Under the pieces are notes generated by a model that saw nothing but the letters and a program-made list of their open reading frames with translations, did not search any database and was not told the origin of the DNA. This document shows, in pieces, positions 12,206-20,236 of a stretch of DNA of 64,000 bases (position 1 is its first letter; the number at the start of each line of letters is the position of its first letter). The DNA lies in assembly GCA_002069965.1 (NCBI GenBank), contig MWCI01000009.1:1-64000 (forward strand), in the 5' to 3' direction. This DNA comes from Spirochaetes bacterium ADurb.Bin218. Lineage in GTDB: Bacteria > Spirochaetota > UBA4802 > UBA5550. A program made the position numbers and the translations under genes.

Positions 12206-12643
12206 ATGAAAATCGCAATTGGAGCGGATCACGCTGGGTTTAGACTTAAAAATTTGATTAAAGATCATTTTAAGGAGCACAGCTTTGTAGATGTGGGGAC
12301 TCACAGTGAGGACTCCTGTGATTATCCGGATTTTGCACAGCTTGTGGGGGAAGAGGTCGCAGCAGGTAGAGCTGATGCAGGTATTGTTATATGCGGCACA
12401 GGAATTGGGATTTCTATTTCTGCAAATAAGGTTAAGGGGATCCGCGCTGCTCTTTGCACAAATGAGTTTATGGCAGAGATGTCAAGGAGGCATAACAATG
12501 CCAATGTCCTTGCCCTTGGAGCAAGGGTCATAGGAGATGACCTTGCTTTGAGAATTGTCAAGGTGTGGCTAAACACTGGTTTTGATGGCGGAAGGCATGA
12601 AAGGAGAGTAGAAAAAATAACAAAGATTGAATTATCACACTAA
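12206..12643 (+). CDS. rpiB: Ribose-5-phosphate isomerase B
   Basis: 145-residue RpiB/LacAB family enzyme interconverting ribose-5-phosphate and ribulose-5-phosphate in the pentose phosphate pathway. The signature GADHAGFRLK is at the N-terminus; the catalytic-cysteine region GIVICGTGIGISISANK, the substrate-binding RRHNNANVLALGAR and the phosphate-binding GGRHERRVEKI at the end are all present. Length is typical. It starts 8 bases after leuS and its 3' end abuts the LamG protein gene, so these are probably cotranscribed. Confidence 0.97.
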   Translation: MKIAIGADHAGFRLKNLIKDHFKEHSFVDVGTHSEDSCDYPDFAQLVGEEVAAGRADAGIVICGTGIGISISANKVKGIRAALCTNEFMAEMSRRHNNANVLALGARVIGDDLALRIVKVWLNTGFDGGRHERRVEKITKIELSH

Positions 12644-12662
12644 ATCTGCCGATATTTTTGAC

Positions 12663-14342
12663 ATGAAATCAAGATTTAGATATATCCTGCTAATTGTTCC
12701 TTTAGTTTTACTTTCTCTCACCAGGGTTGAAGAAAATACCCTGGTGATAAGAGACTTCTCTGAAAAGGCGCTAAGAAACGTTGTAAAGAAAAAATTGCCA
12801 GAGGGTAGCTGGGGGTTCTCCCTTGAGGATCTTGGCTATCACAAAACCTCAGATGTTTTTTCTACAGATATATATCTTTCCTTTGATAAGGAACCTTTGA
12901 AGTATGGAAAAGATGATTCAGGGAAATACAATATTTATTCCTCAGATTATAATTTTGTATCTGATGCAAAGGCCATAGGAAAGGGGTGCGCTTCCTTTTT
13001 TAAGAGAGATCATGGTGTCTATATAAATTCTTCAGAGGGACTATTTCTTGGTTCAAATGATGCCCTTGGTTCTTTTAATATAGAATTTAGATTTAAGGCA
13101 TTACAGACAAATCGTGGGATACTTTTTTCCAGGGTTGGATATTTAAATGGGGCTAAAAAGGGCATTGAGATCTCTCTTGAAAATGGTAAGATTATTGCCA
13201 GAATGCACAATATGTTTATTTCTCCTGATAGTAAAAGTCATAGTCTGATCCTGTCAAGGGGCGGCTTTGTCTCCAGACAACAGTGGCATCACTTTAGCTT
13301 GAGTTTTGATCAATTAACAGGAAAGGTTTCTAAAATAATTGATGGAGAGGAAGAGGATGTTATTTTTATGACTTCTGATAACTCTTCTCAGGGAGTTCCT
13401 TTCACAGCTTTTTTTGGAAAATTTGATTCCTATGATATGACTTTTAAAGGAAGGGATCTCCCCCTTGCTGTAATAGGTAAGGACTATATAGGTCTCATTG
13501 ATGAGTTTCGAATATCTTATATGGACTTTCACTCTCTTTCTGAAAATAAGGATATTGCTTTAAAAAAGTATAAAGGTTCTTCTTATGCTGGAAGGATTCC
13601 TTATAATAGAGAAGGAGTTATAACAGGAGAGGTTATTTCTTTTCCTACAACAGGCACTGAAGTAACAGATATATCCTGGGATGATGAACTCCCCTTGGGA
13701 ACCTTTATCTGGATGGAGGCAAGAACCTCAGACAGGCTGTTTGATAGAGATGAGAGAAATTTAAAATGGTATAAGGTATTAAAGAATCAGAAGGGTTTTT
13801 ATAGAGTTAGAGATGATAAGGGGGATGCCCTTTCTGGGAAATTTTTTCAGATAAGAGCTCATCTTGTTGCTGATTCTGAAGGAGAAAATTCCCCACTATT
13901 AAAAAAGATAATAATAAAATATAGACCAGATATAGCTCCTGATAAGCCTATGTTGCTTCAGGTTGAAAGCTCTGGTGATAGATATGTTGTCCTTAAATGG
14001 AAAAAAAATGTGGAGCATGATCTCAAGGGCTATAAAATTTACTATGGGACAAAGAAAGGGCTTTATGATGGAATAATTTATATTGTCAATGGCAGCAGAA
14101 TTGACAACAGCCTTTCTAAGGATAACTTTATTCGCATCAAGATAGATAACACTCTCATTGAGGAAAACAGAAGGTTGGATAATAGGAATGTCTTGATTTA
14201 TCCTCTTCTTGAAAACACAGTGCTTTATTATTTTGCTGTTACAGCCTATGATTCTTACAAGGTTGATACACCATATAATCATGAGTCAGAGCTATCGGAT
14301 TATGTCTCTGCACGGCCATTTTTTTCTCCAGATATAAAATAA
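12663..14342 (+). CDS. Secreted LamG/fibronectin III-domain protein
   Basis: Start placed at the ATG at 12663, giving a 559-residue product with a membrane signal MKSRFRYILLIVPLVLLSL; an upstream in-frame ATG at 12627 lies inside rpiB and would mask this signal. A LamG-like jelly-roll domain (about residues 120-290: FNIEFRFKALQTNRGILFSR, WHHFSLSFD) is followed by a middle beta-rich part and a fibronectin type III domain (about 430-545: YVVLKWKKNVEHDLKGYKIYYG). Such domains bind carbohydrate or protein ligands at the cell surface or periplasm. No catalytic motif is visible, so function is unknown. No clear ribosome site was seen. Confidence 0.7.
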   Translation: MKSRFRYILLIVPLVLLSLTRVEENTLVIRDFSEKALRNVVKKKLPEGSWGFSLEDLGYHKTSDVFSTDIYLSFDKEPLKYGKDDSGKYNIYSSDYNFVSDAKAIGKGCASFFKRDHGVYINSSEGLFLGSNDALGSFNIEFRFKALQTNRGILFSRVGYLNGAKKGIEISLENGKIIARMHNMFISPDSKSHSLILSRGGFVSRQQWHHFSLSFDQLTGKVSKIIDGEEEDVIFMTSDNSSQGVPFTAFFGKFDSYDMTFKGRDLPLAVIGKDYIGLIDEFRISYMDFHSLSENKDIALKKYKGSSYAGRIPYNREGVITGEVISFPTTGTEVTDISWDDELPLGTFIWMEARTSDRLFDRDERNLKWYKVLKNQKGFYRVRDDKGDALSGKFFQIRAHLVADSEGENSPLLKKIIIKYRPDIAPDKPMLLQVESSGDRYVVLKWKKNVEHDLKGYKIYYGTKKGLYDGIIYIVNGSRIDNSLSKDNFIRIKIDNTLIEENRRLDNRNVLIYPLLENTVLYYFAVTAYDSYKVDTPYNHESELSDYVSARPFFSPDIK

Positions 14343-14507: not shown

Positions 14508-15911
14508 ATGTCCATAGTTACAAAAAATATTATAATCCCTGAAAGATTACAAAAGCCCCTTTATGATTTTATAAACATTTTTCATAAAAAAGGCTATGAG
14601 TGTTATCTGATTGGAGGATGTGTCAGGGATTTTTTGCTTGGGAATGAAACCTATGATTATGATTTTGCCACAAATGCAAGACCTGAAGAGGTAATGAACA
14701 TTTTTCGAAAAGTTGTGCCAACAGGTATAAAACATGGAACAGTTACTGTTTTGTATGGTGGGATGGAATTTGAGGTTACTACCTATAGGGCAGATGGTAA
14801 ATATCTTGATGGCAGAAGACCTGAGTCTGTTTCTTTCTCTGACTCCCTTGAGGAGGATGTAAAGAGGAGAGATTTTACCATAAATGGCCTTGCCTATGAT
14901 CTGCTGAGTAATGAGATAATAGATCTGGTTGGAGGTATAGAGGATCTTGACAAAAAGATTGTGAGGACAATTGGCAATCCCATTGATAGATTCAGTGAAG
15001 ACGGACTTAGAACCTATAGGGCCTGCAGATTTGCTGCAAAGCTTGATTTTATAATTGAAGAAGAAACCTTCAGAGCTATAGAAAAAACTCTTCATGTAGC
15101 AGAAAAGATTTCTTCAGAGAGGATTAGAGATGAGCTCTTTAAGATGTTGACTGCTGATAAGCCATCTAAGGGCTTTGAGTATATGAGGTTATCTGGTTTG
15201 TTGAAGCTTGCAATGCCAGAGCTTGATCAGTGTTATAGTGTTGAGCAGAATAAATTCCATGCCTATGATGTTTATTATCATAGCATATACTCCTGCGATG
15301 CTGCTCCAAAGGAAAAGCCTCTGGTTCGTCTCGCAGCTTTACTCCATGATATTGGTAAGGTTCAGACAAGGAAGATGAGCGATGAGGGAGACTATAGCTT
15401 TTATAATCACGAGGTTATAGGAGCAAAGATTGCAAAGAGAATGATGCGCAGGTTAAAGTTCTCAAATTCAGACATCGAGGTGGTATGCAATCTTATCTTA
15501 AATCACATGTTCCATTATACAGATGATTGGAGTGATGGAGCAGTGAGAAGATTTATGAGAAAGGTTGGTGTTGAAAATATACCAGATCTTTTTGATCTAA
15601 GAGAGGCAGATAGAATAGGTAATGGCACAAGAATGGGGCTTCCTGAGCCTATAAAAAAGCTGCAGGATAGAATTGATGCCATTATAGAAGCAGAGAATGC
15701 AATAACAGTTCGAGATCTAAAAATTAATGGGCATATTATTATGGATCGCTTTGGTTTAAAACCAGGGCCTGTTATTGGCAGAATACTTCATGATCTCCTT
15801 GAAATGGTTCTTGATAACCCTGAGATGAATGAGGAAGAGATCCTGATACAAAAAGCAGAGGAGATATATCAATCCTTAAAAGATGAAGCCGAGGGAAAAT
15901 TCAGTAGTTAA
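14508..15911 (+). CDS. cca: CCA tRNA nucleotidyltransferase (class II, with HD domain)
   Basis: 467-residue nucleotidyltransferase. The catalytic motif is GGCVRDFLLGNETYDYDFAT (DxD carboxylates); the flexible-loop and motif region RRDFTINGLAYD and the neck motif DGLRTYRACRFAAKLDF follow. The C-terminal half has an HD domain (LLHDIGKVQTRK near residue 283). It adds or repairs the CCA end of tRNA; a PcnB-type poly(A) polymerase role cannot be fully excluded, but the combination with HD fits CCA enzymes. A perfect TATAAT at about 14450 suggests its own promoter. Its 3' end overlaps the convergent barrel gene by 36 bases. Confidence 0.9.
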   Translation: MSIVTKNIIIPERLQKPLYDFINIFHKKGYECYLIGGCVRDFLLGNETYDYDFATNARPEEVMNIFRKVVPTGIKHGTVTVLYGGMEFEVTTYRADGKYLDGRRPESVSFSDSLEEDVKRRDFTINGLAYDLLSNEIIDLVGGIEDLDKKIVRTIGNPIDRFSEDGLRTYRACRFAAKLDFIIEEETFRAIEKTLHVAEKISSERIRDELFKMLTADKPSKGFEYMRLSGLLKLAMPELDQCYSVEQNKFHAYDVYYHSIYSCDAAPKEKPLVRLAALLHDIGKVQTRKMSDEGDYSFYNHEVIGAKIAKRMMRRLKFSNSDIEVVCNLILNHMFHYTDDWSDGAVRRFMRKVGVENIPDLFDLREADRIGNGTRMGLPEPIKKLQDRIDAIIEAENAITVRDLKINGHIIMDRFGLKPGPVIGRILHDLLEMVLDNPEMNEEEILIQKAEEIYQSLKDEAEGKFSS

Positions 15912-17462
15912 TTCCTTGCCAGAGGAAAATTTTAGATATTCACATCTGATATGGAAGGACATGTCTTCTTTTCTATATTTTAGCTTTGTGGCATAGGCCC
16001 TGGCAGATTCCTTGAAAAGATTGCATGACATTTCAGCCTCAGATGTGGGCGGAACTGTTGAGTATATATAATTTTCGTTATTGATATTTATAAAACCAGC
16101 ACCTGCCATAAAAGAGAAATTCTGCAAAAATAAGAGCTTAATCTCACAGAAGCCACTAAAGGATTTGACCTTATCCATTTCCTGAATGTCTCCTCTTAAT
16201 TTAAAAAAGAAATTTTGCCAGGGAGAAATAGTTGTGGATCCTGAAATTTTGTTTTTCTTCTCCCTGAGATCATCTCTGTAGCTTCCAGAACTTGCAGCTT
16301 TTCCGCTAAAAGAGATTATTTTAAAGGGATTGAGATTAAAAAAGATCTCTTCCTTCCTTATGCCTGAGATATAATCCCTTTGATATGAAGGGTTGAGATT
16401 TTTTTCATTATATACAGATGCTCCAAACTCATATTTATCACAGAGCATAAATCCTGATGTTATTTCAAAGATATTCGAAGGGTTTATGGAGGAGTTTGAA
16501 TGTTCAGCAAAAAAATTTTCGTCACAATTTTTACCTTTTATAGAAAGATATGCTATCCTGTTTCTTACAGTGATCCCCCATACAAGCCCATGGCCTTTTA
16601 AATTATTATCAAATTCTCTTATTGATATAGCAGGTTCAATAAATAGGGAAATATTTTCATCTGTGTATTCTATGAATAAACCTGTAACAGAATATTTTTT
16701 TATGCCACTTTGTAAGCTTTTATTGAATTCCCATTTTATTTCATTCATGTTTGGATCTTTTATTTCTGTCTGGCTATAGTATAACTGAATCTTCAGGAGA
16801 TCATAAATGTTGCAATAGCTCATAAGGCCAGAGGTAAGGATATCAACAGGAGCATTATAAGATCCATCTTTTTCTGTTTTATAGGTAAGGGTCTGTAGTG
16901 TTGAGGTGATATAGCCTTGAGATATCTCCTCTTCTTTAATATATCTTCGCTGTATTGAAAAAAATGGAACTATCCCTGTTTTTATGTTTTCTTCATTGAA
17001 ATATATGTCAGAGGCGATTCCAAAGAGACTACCTGCTGGATTTGTCCCTGTTGATGTAATGATTTTTTTATCCTTTGAAAGAGAAAAGGATTTATCAAAG
17101 CTATTCCCAGAAAAAAGTGTTCTCTTACCAAAAATAATACCTGACCCAAATCTGAGATTGTAGTTTCCAAGGATAAAATCAAAGGAATTGTTTACCTCAG
17201 AAATTTTTATGTTCCATGTAAAATCGGTTTTATCTTTTTTAAAGTCCCTTATTAAAAATAAATTAAAAAAATATTTCTCTTCTATGGATTCACAAAGGGA
17301 TGTGCGCAAAAAAAGTCTTTTTTCTTCGTCCTCATAGTTTATCATATCTCTTAACATTTCTGCATCAATGGAGGAGATTATATTGTTTCCATGGCTTTGC
17401 GATTTAAGAACTACCATAAATGCCAATAGCAGCAAGAGTGAGGTTATGGCTCTCTTTTTCAT
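15876..17462 (-). CDS. Outer-membrane beta-barrel protein, third gene of LTD/HHH operon
   Basis: About 528 residues. The start is taken as the ATG at 17462 (MKKRAITSLLLLLAF), because it overlaps the upstream stop as ATGA, a typical coupling; an ATG three codons earlier also exists. After the signal peptide come many alternating strands (FDFILGNYNLRFGSGIIFGK, repeated short amphipathic runs), and the chain ends EFSLGFIF, with the terminal phenylalanine expected of a BAM-inserted barrel. No enzymatic motif is seen. It is not recognised as a named family. Its tail overlaps the convergent CCA enzyme gene by 36 bases. Confidence 0.7.
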   Translation of the reverse strand: MKKRAITSLLLLLAFMVVLKSQSHGNNIISSIDAEMLRDMINYEDEEKRLFLRTSLCESIEEKYFFNLFLIRDFKKDKTDFTWNIKISEVNNSFDFILGNYNLRFGSGIIFGKRTLFSGNSFDKSFSLSKDKKIITSTGTNPAGSLFGIASDIYFNEENIKTGIVPFFSIQRRYIKEEEISQGYITSTLQTLTYKTEKDGSYNAPVDILTSGLMSYCNIYDLLKIQLYYSQTEIKDPNMNEIKWEFNKSLQSGIKKYSVTGLFIEYTDENISLFIEPAISIREFDNNLKGHGLVWGITVRNRIAYLSIKGKNCDENFFAEHSNSSINPSNIFEITSGFMLCDKYEFGASVYNEKNLNPSYQRDYISGIRKEEIFFNLNPFKIISFSGKAASSGSYRDDLREKKNKISGSTTISPWQNFFFKLRGDIQEMDKVKSFSGFCEIKLLFLQNFSFMAGAGFININNENYIYSTVPPTSEAEMSCNLFKESARAYATKLKYRKEDMSFHIRCEYLKFSSGKELTTEFSLGFIF

Positions 17463-18781
17463 TTGAGGCATATATTTCTTATAGTTTCTTTTTGTTCTTC
17501 AGATAAGCTTTTATCTGAGTTAAGTGCTGTCTCAAAATTGATATGGCCTTTGCTAAGTGAAAGCTCGCTGTATTTTATGGCACTTGTTGCAGGAATTCCT
17601 GCTTCAATTAGCAGTCTAAATTTTTCTTTTATTATCTCTTTTGATGAAATATGGTTTTTCTTTGGAGCTGTCTTTTTTTTATTTTCTTTTGATTGAGATG
17701 ATTCAGGGAGGCTCTCCTGGCCGTGGTTTTGATCCCTTTCAAATCCATAGCAATATTTTTTAATTGAATTTATTTCCTCTCTGCTCAGTCCTATTTGAAT
17801 AAGTGATTTTTCTGTGAGAGGTCCAATTTTTTCTCTGTAGCTTATAATTCTTTTGCATGAGGTTGTGCTTACCTCCGGTATTTTTTGTAGTTCCTCGAAG
17901 GTGGCTTTGTTTATGTTAATGTCTTTATTGATAGATGATTCTGGAGGGGATCTAAACTCAATGTAGTTTTTGTTTTCATAGTTAAATGGCACAAAGGTTA
18001 TGCCAAAGTTATGGGAGTATCCTAAGTATGGATGAAAACCCAGCAAATAGCTTATAGTAAAGTTTTTTATGCCTATTGATATGGATGCGGCAATTCTTGA
18101 GTCCTCAGGTGTATATCCTGCTTTTATTACTATATTACCCAGAGGGATTATGCTGGCTGTAAATGAATTTATGTATCCTGCAGAGGTATCTGTTATATTC
18201 CATGTTAGGGCAAAGCCTTTGGCTGGAGTTAAAATTATGCCTCCGCTTTTTTCCGGGAAGATTTCTTTTTTATTTTTTGAATTGAACTCTGTGAGAAGTG
18301 AATTTTGTGTAAAGGCAAGAGTAAAAAAATTGCAAGGCATAAGAGCAATAGCGAAATCTATATCTCTGAAATTTTTATTCAGGGATATGTCATCTGTTTG
18401 TATAGAAATTTGATATATATTATAAGAAAGCCCTGTGTTTATAATATTGATAAATTTATATGCTGTTGATATAGAGTAGGAATTTTCTTTATAAAAATAA
18501 GAGCCAAAGGAGCTATAGTGTATCTGGAAACCATAATTTTCTGATGAGTATTTTGCTCCTGCAAAATATGTTGATAGGTTTTCATCACTATAGGGCCTGC
18601 CTGTATTAAAAGTTAATCCAAATCCTTCATAGCTGTTTATAGAGAGAATATTCTGAGATAAAACAGGGCTTCCATTAAAATTAGCTGCACAGCTGAAAGG
18701 GAAAAGTGACTCAGGATTTGTATTTTTATATTCAAAGGCAGAGATTATTGACATTGATATGAAAAAAAATGCTGATATCAT
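17459..18781 (-). CDS. Barrel-like envelope protein with C-terminal helix-hairpin-helix domain
   Basis: 440 residues. A signal peptide (MISAFFFISMSIISAFE) is followed by about 250 residues of barrel-like beta structure (aromatic/glycine-rich strands such as GYSHNFGITFVPF). At about 286-345 is a ComEA-type helix-hairpin-helix: INKATFEELQKIPEVSTTSC KRIISYREKIGP region with the second hairpin SREEINSIKKY. Then a lysine-rich linker (about 365-385) and a helical end (KEIIKEKFRLLIEAGIP). HHH domains of this kind bind double-stranded DNA without sequence preference. It directly follows the lamin-tail gene (TAAATG junction) and overlaps the next barrel gene by ATGA. Function is inferred only. Confidence 0.75.
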   Translation of the reverse strand: MISAFFFISMSIISAFEYKNTNPESLFPFSCAANFNGSPVLSQNILSINSYEGFGLTFNTGRPYSDENLSTYFAGAKYSSENYGFQIHYSSFGSYFYKENSYSISTAYKFINIINTGLSYNIYQISIQTDDISLNKNFRDIDFAIALMPCNFFTLAFTQNSLLTEFNSKNKKEIFPEKSGGIILTPAKGFALTWNITDTSAGYINSFTASIIPLGNIVIKAGYTPEDSRIAASISIGIKNFTISYLLGFHPYLGYSHNFGITFVPFNYENKNYIEFRSPPESSINKDININKATFEELQKIPEVSTTSCKRIISYREKIGPLTEKSLIQIGLSREEINSIKKYCYGFERDQNHGQESLPESSQSKENKKKTAPKKNHISSKEIIKEKFRLLIEAGIPATSAIKYSELSLSKGHINFETALNSDKSLSEEQKETIRNICLK

Positions 18782-19774
18782 TTATCTCTGAACCATAATA
18801 AGATAGATTGTTGCATTGTCAGAGTTTTTCCCTGATATGGCCTCGACTTTTACCAGATACAGACCTGTAAGCAATTTACCTCTAAGCATGGAGGTATTTA
18901 TTGAAGGATTAAAATATCCAGGGACAGCATTTGTAATAATAGTTGATGAAAATATTGCACTGCCAGCTGAATTAAATATTCTTATTTTGATTGAGCAGTC
19001 TCTGTATACAAATAGAGGTAAAGTTATATTCTGATTATTATTAGTTAAGATTGTAGTTATTTTGTTTTTTACCGGAGATATTAGCTTATTGGCGGAAACT
19101 TTCAGATTCACTATATTTTCTCTGCCAGGTGTGGAATAGGGAGTAAGTATAAAGTCAGAGGGAGAATTGGTATCATTGCTATTAATCCTCGAAAGCGAGG
19201 GATAGCTCATTGAAGAGTAATCACCAGTCCAGATCATGCACTCCTGAGGATTACCAGTATAATTGGTCCATTGATTGTATAAAATGGCATAATCAAGGTA
19301 GCTTTTAATTGTGCTATTAGGGCTTCCATCGCGATTAGAAAAGGCCATGAAGTCAATGATCCCATTATTTGCAGGGTCATCGTCTGTGTCTATTGCTACA
19401 ACACAGTCAGTGCTCCATAGCCCATAATTATTGCAGTATAGATCTCTTATGCCATTTTTGTTTAGGTCACCAGCAAGATCAGTTTCATCTTGCAGATTTT
19501 CCGATGTGAAATGGATTACTGCAAATCTATCATCAAAGGGTGTTTGAGGATCATCAGTTCCTTTTAAACTTGTTGCTGACTGTGCAATTGACTCATTTGT
19601 CCCGTAATACATTGTAACAAAAAGAGCGGCTATATCAAAGTTATCAGAAGGATTAGTAGCTTTAAGTTCTATCCAGTCAGAGTTTGTATTGAAAGAAACC
19701 TCATTTATTATTATTGCAGAATATGCCATTGCTGTGGACAAAAAAATCGTGAAAAACGAGCAAAGGTATTGCAT
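18782..19774 (-). CDS. Secreted lamin-tail-domain (LTD) protein
   Basis: 330 residues with signal peptide MQYLCSFFTIFLSTAMAYS. The mature start AIIINEVSFNTNSDWIELKA is the opening of a lamin-tail immunoglobulin-like domain (about 20-190, including YGLWSTDCVVAIDTDDDP and GSPNSTI...YP SLSRI). The C-terminal part (about 235-330) resembles a beta-sandwich attachment domain (IKIRIFNSAGSAIFSST, TGLYLVKVEA), like secretion/anchor domains of surface proteins. LTDs occur in secreted bacterial proteins, often with nucleases, and may bind DNA or protein. AAGGAGG five bases before the ATG confirms the start. It is the first gene of a three-gene coupled operon. Confidence 0.78.
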   Translation of the reverse strand: MQYLCSFFTIFLSTAMAYSAIIINEVSFNTNSDWIELKATNPSDNFDIAALFVTMYYGTNESIAQSATSLKGTDDPQTPFDDRFAVIHFTSENLQDETDLAGDLNKNGIRDLYCNNYGLWSTDCVVAIDTDDDPANNGIIDFMAFSNRDGSPNSTIKSYLDYAILYNQWTNYTGNPQECMIWTGDYSSMSYPSLSRINSNDTNSPSDFILTPYSTPGRENIVNLKVSANKLISPVKNKITTILTNNNQNITLPLFVYRDCSIKIRIFNSAGSAIFSSTIITNAVPGYFNPSINTSMLRGKLLTGLYLVKVEAISGKNSDNATIYLIMVQR

Positions 19775-19951: not shown

Positions 19952-20236
19952 ATGAAAAAATTTTTGGTAATTTCTTTAAGCTTTTTTGTTGCATTTTCAG
20001 TTATCTCTTGCAGTAGTGCAAAGATTGACAAGTCATCTGCAACATCTATAGCTGCTGACACAGCTGCAAAAGAAGCAACAGCTAAAGCTGAAAAAGAAAA
20101 GGCAAAAGCTGCATGTAAAGCTGATTGTGACAAGGCTAATGACGACTGCGTTAAGAAAGCTGGGAAAACAAAGGCTAAGCTCGATGCTTGTGCAAAGGCA
20201 AAAACAAAATGCTATGCAGATTGTGATAGCAAGTAA
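19952..20236 (+). CDS. Small cysteine-rich lipoprotein
   Basis: 94 residues. The signal ends in the lipobox VISC with Cys20 as lipidation site; GGAGGAG precedes the ATG. The mature part is alanine/lysine-rich and helical, with six further cysteines at 55, 59, 66, 80, 87, 91, i.e. C-x3-C-x6-C-x13-C-x6-C-x3-C, an exact mirror arrangement. This suggests a disulfide-bonded helical hairpin in the envelope. No family is recognised. A perfect TATAAT lies at 19857-19862 without a clear -35 box. A strong terminator follows, so it is probably a single-gene, possibly abundant, transcript. Confidence 0.8.
   Translation: MKKFLVISLSFFVAFSVISCSSAKIDKSSATSIAADTAAKEATAKAEKEKAKAACKADCDKANDDCVKKAGKTKAKLDACAKAKTKCYADCDSK

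Follow-up and report, generated by a model that had tools for sequence, protein, structure and literature searches.

A three-gene operon in the window, the 64,000-nucleotide stretch of DNA from an uncultured spirochaete lineage that was analysed, encodes a secreted protein resembling lamin-tail domain proteins (LTD), a predicted PorV-like barrel with periplasmic helix-hairpin-helix (HhH) domains (HHHB) and a predicted giant outer-membrane barrel (BAR). The pairing of a PorV-like protein with an usher-sized pore, which is common to Spirochaetota and gut Bacteroidota, looks like an old, undescribed outer-membrane machine. The reading that we tentatively prefer is that the operon encodes a two-barrel outer-membrane translocon of the PorV family with LTD as its dedicated surface subunit, the HhH domains serving mainly for docking; our confidence in it falls somewhat short of even.

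The preliminary description of three tightly coupled genes for secreted and outer-membrane proteins was verified in its coordinates (Table 1), junctions and signal peptides. The LTD stop and the HHHB start are joined in the sequence TAAATG (18784-18779), and the HHHB stop shares ATGA with an ATG at 17462, which is more likely to be the start of BAR (MKKRAITSLLLLLAF...) than the mechanically assigned start at 17471. Each of the three products has a recognisable hydrophobic signal peptide at its N terminus. At its 3' end the BAR gene overlaps the convergent gene for the CCA-adding enzyme (14508-15911, plus strand) by 36 bases. Conservation of the gene order, proposed earlier as a check, was found across a whole order and beyond: the arrangement LTD-HHHB-BAR is kept in 30/30 uncut named Spirochaetota loci. 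Since, in addition, the dN/dS values of the three genes, compared between two congeners, are 0.14-0.24, reflecting purifying selection, the operon is not a chance arrangement. The module is single-copy and conserved across the window's order, and its conserved neighbourhood contains no metabolic genes. Searches of several near-complete genomes belonging to this order and phylum (G021, G030, G049 and G051) did not detect it, and the LTD clusters of G021 and G030 gave no match to the three profiles.

Table 1. Features of the operon, listed in the direction of transcription.
Feature	Position	Strand	Basis
LTD-like secreted protein, gene 1, 330 aa	18782..19774	-	ORF, homology to LTD proteins
D-x-N-x-N-G-x-x-D loop, residues 103-111	19442..19468	-	conserved; calcium-loop-like by sequence pattern
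C-terminal beta-sandwich of LTD, residues about 227-330, FlgD_ig / CHU_C / Por_Secre_tail-like	18785..19096	-	weak Pfam CHU_C match, 0.018
HHHB, PorV-like barrel with periplasmic HhH domains, gene 2, 440 aa	17459..18781	-	ORF, Pfam, predicted structure
14-strand barrel of HHHB, residues 53-263	17993..18625	-	AlphaFold2, Foldseek
First (HhH)2 domain of HHHB, ComEA-type, hairpin glycines lost, residues 286-346	17744..17926	-	HHH_3, comE, ComEA structures
Second helical HhH-like domain of HHHB, residues 380-440	17462..17644	-	predicted structure, alignment
BAR, 24-strand outer-membrane barrel, gene 3, 531 aa	15876..17471, likely start 17462	-	AlphaFold2, Foldseek

The LTD protein is 51-37% identical to 29 homologues from the order, with 37 invariant columns in the alignment. 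Its earlier designation as a lamin-tail protein holds by homology but not by direct match: Pfam returned nothing for lamin tail in the window protein at E≤1, and only 1/30 of its relatives matched PF00932, at 0.023, whereas proteins at the same gene position in loci L038, L040 and L109 scored above the PF00932 cutoff, with L116 reaching 30.5 of 34.3 bits. From these homologues we infer that the window protein has an LTD-like core. Moreover, a profile built solely from the LTD proteins of the order matches the L038 protein (E 2.4e-9), mostly in the C-terminal domain, and the homologous C-terminal segment of the L038 protein itself matches FlgD_ig at 7.5e-10. Judged from such matches, the C-terminal sandwich is related to FlgD and type IX sorting domains. 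In 25 genomes, the copy in this operon is essentially the only one. In the L111 outgroup, the gene upstream has no detectable LTD but retains a C-terminus like FlgD_ig, as expected if the C-terminal domain is the docking part. In the conserved loop, D103, N105 and N107 are invariant and G108 and D111 nearly so (alignment A1), a pattern that makes it a candidate calcium site.

The AlphaFold2 model of HHHB (pLDDT 84 for the whole protein and about 90 within the barrel) is a 14-strand FadL-like barrel, in agreement with the barrel previously claimed for the middle protein. Among the Foldseek matches listed, the highest query-normalised TM-score (TMq 0.45) belonged to 6h3i_F, the PorV of the type IX translocon. 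In profile searches with the PorV/PorQ family model (NCBIfam NF033709, PorV_fam), which has a curated cutoff of 90 bits, an outgroup HHHB matched at 7e-14, the best whole-protein score of an outgroup, 52.1 bits in L038, stayed below that cutoff, and the window HHHB family gave no match at E≤0.05. Residues 286-323 match Pfam HHH_3 at 1.2e-8, which bears out the ComEA-type HHH domain described earlier; this region also matches comE (3.3e-6) and, by profile, the ComEA crystal structures 8dss and 8dfk, and reaches 27.1 of the 152.35 bits set as the ComEA cutoff in TIGR01259. What had been called a lysine-rich tail is really a disordered linker (residues 352-376) followed by a second HhH-like domain of four helices, with pLDDT mostly above 85, that lines up with an additional HhH copy in outgroup homologues. 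Both barrel termini and the HhH are predicted to lie in the periplasm and not to reach the chromosome, so the suggested tether between envelope and chromosome was rejected.

For BAR, the AlphaFold2 model (pLDDT 89, pTM 0.82) contains 24 counted strands, which bears out the claim of a second barrel, and the protein ends in SLGFIF. Its best Foldseek matches are the FimD/PapC usher pores, followed by a second group of TonB-dependent receptors. No Pfam family, usher domain or plug domain was detected in a Pfam search, and a BAR profile run against PDB sequences matched only designed repeats and antibodies, at a level that looks like chance.

In other Spirochaetota families, the locus takes the form of LTD, a PorV-like protein with HhH, and a giant barrel that itself carries HhH. 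In Parabacteroides distasonis, a PorV-like gene (WP_121956132) lies directly upstream of an HhH-barrel gene (WP_121956131). The order-only barrel profile matches the upstream gene (E 9e-15), which was also the only match in 72,556 plasmid records when an outgroup PorV barrel was used in tblastn. The barrel pair therefore spans two phyla. No LTD gene adjoins the barrel genes at the P. distasonis and B. finegoldii loci, and the annotation of the pair goes no further than 'hypothetical' and 'helix-hairpin-helix' proteins. Literature searches on LTD with HHH and outer membrane, and on PorV with ComEA or HHH, returned no described system with this combination, consistent with the earlier remark that none was known with this exact set.

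In the translocon that we favour, BAR would be the large pore and HHHB the PorV-like partner barrel beside it. The periplasmic HhH of HHHB would dock this barrel onto the periplasmic face of BAR, taking over from the HhH found at BAR's own N terminus in other families. LTD would be the dedicated client, crossing the outer membrane through BAR and being held at the cell surface by its FlgD/type IX-like C-terminal domain on the PorV-like barrel, where it may act as a pore cap or as the receptor of the complex. The TM-score ranking of PorV, the presence of the barrel pair in two phyla, the usher size of BAR and the single occurrence of the LTD C-terminal domain speak for a translocon; the sub-cutoff PorV_fam scores, the lack of an LTD gene beside the barrel genes at the two Bacteroidota loci and the stronger conservation of LTD than of either barrel, which is unusual in a surface protein, speak against it. 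If protein is moved, the complex would be a compact system of the same general kind as the type IX translocon. General type IX-like secretion was rejected, since the C-terminal domain is essentially limited to one copy in each of the 25 genomes.

A less probable but serious alternative is that the operon serves to import DNA across the outer membrane, for competence or scavenging, in diderms that have no type IV pili. LTD would bind DNA at the surface, BAR would form the pore, and the HhH of HHHB would pull DNA in as ComEA does, before its passage to ComEC. The preliminary description had likewise suggested DNA binding or uptake. The HhH of HHHB is closest to ComEA, no other ComEA-type HHH protein was detected in the window genome, and ComEC is present there, although ComEC is near-universal in the phylum and its co-occurrence is therefore uninformative. 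The details of the HhH point both ways, and they leave the link to DNA weaker than suggested earlier. The G-h-G hairpin is the DNA-contacting part of the HhH, and such domains are also present in envelope proteins that do not act on DNA (GspK, PsbU). Near-canonical hairpins such as RIG/GIG are seen in 4/5 of the outgroup HHHBs compared, and the first HhH has a mean net charge of +6.6 in outgroups vs 0.0 in the window's order, where G-h-G is absent from all 38 members (0/38 with G-x-G in hairpin 1). Refutation of the idea had been tied beforehand to an HHH that cannot bind DNA, and the loss of hairpin and charge indicates this in part, by sequence. Under DNA import, function would be reduced in this order or the HhH would bind DNA differently. 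In the BAR homologues, the HhH is without G-h-G in 10/10 proteins compared and neutral or acidic in six, features that suit docking to protein better than DNA binding. In addition, genome G056 has a standalone ComEA-like protein (L113) beside the module, and HHHB as a simple ComEA substitute was rejected on this basis.

None of the 59 genomes yielded a PilT above cutoff. In the window genome, the one PilT-family match and the only secretin are about 1 kb apart, an arrangement like that of a type II system, and canonical type IV pilus competence was rejected accordingly. Since these genomes are without PilT and a pilus-type secretin, DNA import stays a live rival. It also draws support from secreted DNases, to which both LTD and duplicate HhH domains occur fused (PMC4486849), and from Porphyromonas gingivalis, which needs ComEA and ComEC and in which the outer-membrane import step is stated to be open (PMC11532111). 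In its widest form, which we consider unlikely, the barrel pair is the missing outer-membrane DNA conduit of diderm transformers that do not use type IV pili, with LTD as receptor, a 24-strand pore and a PorV-linked ComEA-like ratchet, widespread in Spirochaetota and Bacteroidota and degenerated or re-tuned in the window's order. If DNA is indeed moved, the pair would explain pilus-free DNA entry across the outer membrane, as in P. gingivalis.

It is improbable that the pair is a biogenesis factor for other outer-membrane proteins or lipoproteins, aiding their assembly or stability. In Bacteroidota, FadL/PorV-like barrels also occur among the subunits associated with BAM (BamG), and the barrel immediately downstream of the L038 module matches BamG at 7.6e-11; the single-copy, conserved and selectively constrained nature of the module would fit as well. 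However, that match belongs to a third barrel and not to HHHB, and a core assembly factor would not be expected to be missing from the four near-complete genomes mentioned above. Least probable is an uptake pore for solutes or siderophore-like compounds, with a capture protein at the surface and the HhH as a periplasmic docking remnant, which would suit the TonB-dependent receptors among the BAR fold matches and the role of FadL-like proteins as importers of hydrophobic compounds, but BAR has 24 strands rather than 22 and no Pfam plug domain, and metabolic genes are absent from the conserved neighbourhood.

Among known systems, the FimD/PapC ushers resemble BAR in their 24-strand size and fold, but BAR has neither detectable sequence similarity to them nor a Pfam usher domain, and no chaperone or pilin gene lies nearby. 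ComEA shares with HHHB a periplasmic (HhH)2 domain, which in HHHB is fused to a barrel and duplicated and has, in the order, lost its hairpin glycines and positive charge. The DNA-uptake machine of type IV pili differs in requiring PilT and a pilus-type PilQ secretin. Transformation in Riemerella anatipestifer, a diderm without the usual machinery, offers a parallel by description, in that it depends on one protein at the surface, one barrel in the outer membrane and a periplasmic protein with HHH (PMC8459023); there, however, the barrel has a carboxypeptidase regulatory-like domain of the sort usual in TonB-dependent receptors, and a periplasmic location is predicted for the HHH protein. The P. 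distasonis giant-barrel homologue has an N-terminal HhH and a PorV-like neighbour, but the HhH is on the giant barrel instead of the PorV-like protein and LTD is not a neighbour. The type IX translocon (SprA-PorV-CTD cargo; PDB 6h3i, 8gl6) likewise sets a PorV-like 14-strand barrel beside a giant one, and its cargo, like LTD, has a FlgD/CTD-like C-terminal sandwich. A search of the 59 genomes gave no SprA_N match, although its positive control was also silent. The type IX translocon differs in serving many cargo proteins with a shared sorting domain, whereas the present module would have one dedicated client, a periplasmic HhH and a giant barrel of 24 predicted strands whose closest folds are ushers.

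Three minus-strand open reading frames are present at 15876-19774, where the preliminary description had placed an operon. They encode LTD, a lamin-tail-like secreted protein, HHHB, a PorV-like barrel with periplasmic helix-hairpin-helix (HhH), and BAR, a giant barrel. As it had stated, LTD and HHHB meet at a TAAATG junction and all three proteins carry a hydrophobic N-terminus as signal peptide; the ATGA overlap of HHHB and BAR holds if BAR starts at 17462 (MKKRAITSLLLLLAF), which we prefer as the better start, but not with a start at 17471. BAR and the convergent CCA-adding enzyme gene share 36 bases; the latter lies outside the unit, since its downstream position is common to close relatives only. 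The sole clear Pfam match across the three proteins is HHH_3 in HHHB (1.2e-8), and the LTD C-terminus faintly matches a type IX-like domain (CHU_C, 0.018). The divergent lipoprotein-like frame is Ala/Lys/Cys-rich and adjoins the operon in a congener too (54% identity, L021). Between the ribose-5-phosphate isomerase-like and CCA-adding genes lies a gene for a secreted protein that weakly matches laminin-G and fn3; it is kept in the genus and some family members.

Operon genes and neighbouring reading frames in the window
Feature	Coordinates	Strand	Length
LTD-like protein	18782-19774	-	330 aa
HHHB	17459-18781	-	440 aa
BAR	15876-17471	-	531 aa
Small lipoprotein-like ORF	19952-20236	+	94 aa
Secreted protein	12627-14342	+	

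The module is real, and its conservation is wider than one window could show. HHHB is single copy in 44 of 59 sampled relatives, spread across the window's whole order. The LTD alignment, scanned against named genomes, gave 32 loci, 31 titled as Spirochaetota metagenome-assembled genomes and one an unassigned bacterium bin (sources include UBA5763, UBA5550, RBG_16_49_21, HGW-Spirochaetae-5 and ADurb.BinA120). The gene order LTD-HHHB-BAR and the strand were kept in all 30 loci long enough to show it; two were left out of this count, their sequence stopping within the LTD gene. Between two congeners, dN/dS was 0.14, 0.19 and 0.24 for the three genes. G021 and G030, genomes of the same order that gave no hit to the module, have clusters (L129, L130) of LTD and other secreted proteins, none matching any of the three module profiles, and a single 2.5 Mb spirochaete genome (G052) has 17 LTD-domain matches.

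Other Spirochaetota families were searched with profiles from window-order members only. The HHHB profile (barrel alone) matched loci L038 (1.8e-25), L111, L040, L112 and L109 (6e-8), the BAR profile L110 (4.5e-9), L111, L115, L112 and L040, and the LTD profile L038 (2.4e-9). Outgroup HHHBs end in at least two HhH copies, and the next gene encodes a 657-861 aa protein with an N-terminal HhH and a BAR-type barrel. Profile-profile comparison of BAR with these proteins gave 99.9% probability across 472 columns, although the order-only searches are the cleaner homology test because that BAR profile contained L038 and L040 members. The HhH of BAR is lost in the window's order. LTD proteins above the PF00932 cutoff lie upstream of the barrel pair in L038, L040 and L109; in L116 the preceding protein reaches 30.5 of 34.3 bits. 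Directly after the module in G056 is a further FadL-like barrel (L038:6831-8012, +; BamG/PorV-like, 7.6e-11), and barrel-sized genes likewise follow it in L111 and L115.

The barrel pair also extends beyond the window's order into a second phylum. When 72,556 plasmid-collection records were searched by tblastn, the L038 HhH-barrel matched proteins of Bacteroides, Parabacteroides and Phocaeicola; the alignments take in 81% of its length at E 2e-17 to 6e-21, and the annotation, where there is any, reads 'helix-hairpin-helix domain-containing'. In Parabacteroides distasonis, 13 bases upstream of the HhH-barrel gene, lies that for WP_121956132 ('hypothetical', 269 aa), a PorV-like barrel matched by the order-only HHHB profile (9e-15) and the only match to the L038 PorV barrel in the whole collection; these independent searches thus converge on the same adjacent genes. 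Two of the Bacteroidota 'plasmid' records (L133, L134) are probably misfiled chromosome pieces, since they carry the housekeeping genes leuS and nadA.

In the AlphaFold2 model of HHHB (31-sequence input, pLDDT 84), residues 53-263 form 14 strands, and two four-helix domains follow, at about 295-343 and at 380-440, with a disordered linker (352-376) between them; among the Foldseek matches listed, the highest query-normalised TM-score (0.45) was to PorV of the type IX translocon. The BAR model (pLDDT 89, pTM 0.82) has 24 strands by our count and best resembles FimD/PapC usher pores, then TonB-dependent receptors. Termini of outer-membrane barrels point to the periplasm, so the HhH domains are taken as periplasmic. 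We favour, tentatively, a PorV-family two-barrel translocon as the best-supported reading: BAR would be the pore, HHHB its partner barrel, tied to it via the periplasmic HhH domains, and LTD a dedicated client, which its own C-terminal domain would anchor at the surface. That domain occurs essentially once per genome and is therefore not a general export signal. SprA had no match in the 59 genomes, in a search run without a positive control.

DNA import, in line with the uptake proposed in the preliminary description, is the strongest rival, and we consider it less likely than the translocon; the DNA reading is possible but weaker than was stated there. ComEA is the family nearest to the HHHB HhH, yet the first hairpin lacks G-x-G in all 38 window-order sequences (the window protein reads EVS), one glycine is left in the second, and the first domain averages a net charge of 0.0, whereas in seven outgroup HHHBs the average is +6.6 (the window protein itself has +3). 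The DNA-contacting G-h-G motif is also absent from the giant-barrel HhH in all 10 proteins compared, including both Bacteroidota ones. Loss of one hairpin alone is not decisive, since the first is missing as well from L113, a ComEA-like protein that stands alone. Near-canonical hairpins are kept in the L038, L110, L111 and L040 HHHBs (RVG, NVG, RIG and KIG; GIG or RIG). On balance, judged from motifs and charge, the HhH of the module looks mainly like a docking domain, and DNA binding in some outgroups is possible. In another Spirochaetota family, a 408 aa protein (L114:5621-6847, -) contains what appears by sequence to be a ComEC-like metallo-hydrolase domain and, fused to it at the C-terminus, an HhH whose first hairpin has G-h-G.

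ComEC is found in 56 of 59 genomes and so does not discriminate. In the window genome, no ComEA-type HHH protein other than HHHB was detected, the remaining weaker matches sitting within larger proteins. No PilT reaches its cutoff in the 59 genomes, and the window genome has one secretin about 1 kb from one related ATPase, a type II-like arrangement; a pilus-type machine for taking up DNA is thus not apparent. Import draws its appeal from this lack of DNA-uptake pili, and from P. gingivalis, for which the way imported DNA crosses the outer membrane is stated to be an open question (PMC11532111). Like the preliminary description, we found no described system with this exact set. Transformation of Riemerella anatipestifer depends on three components, namely an outer-membrane barrel, a protein at the cell surface and an HHH protein of the periplasm (PMC8459023), which as described are similar in kind to the parts of the module.
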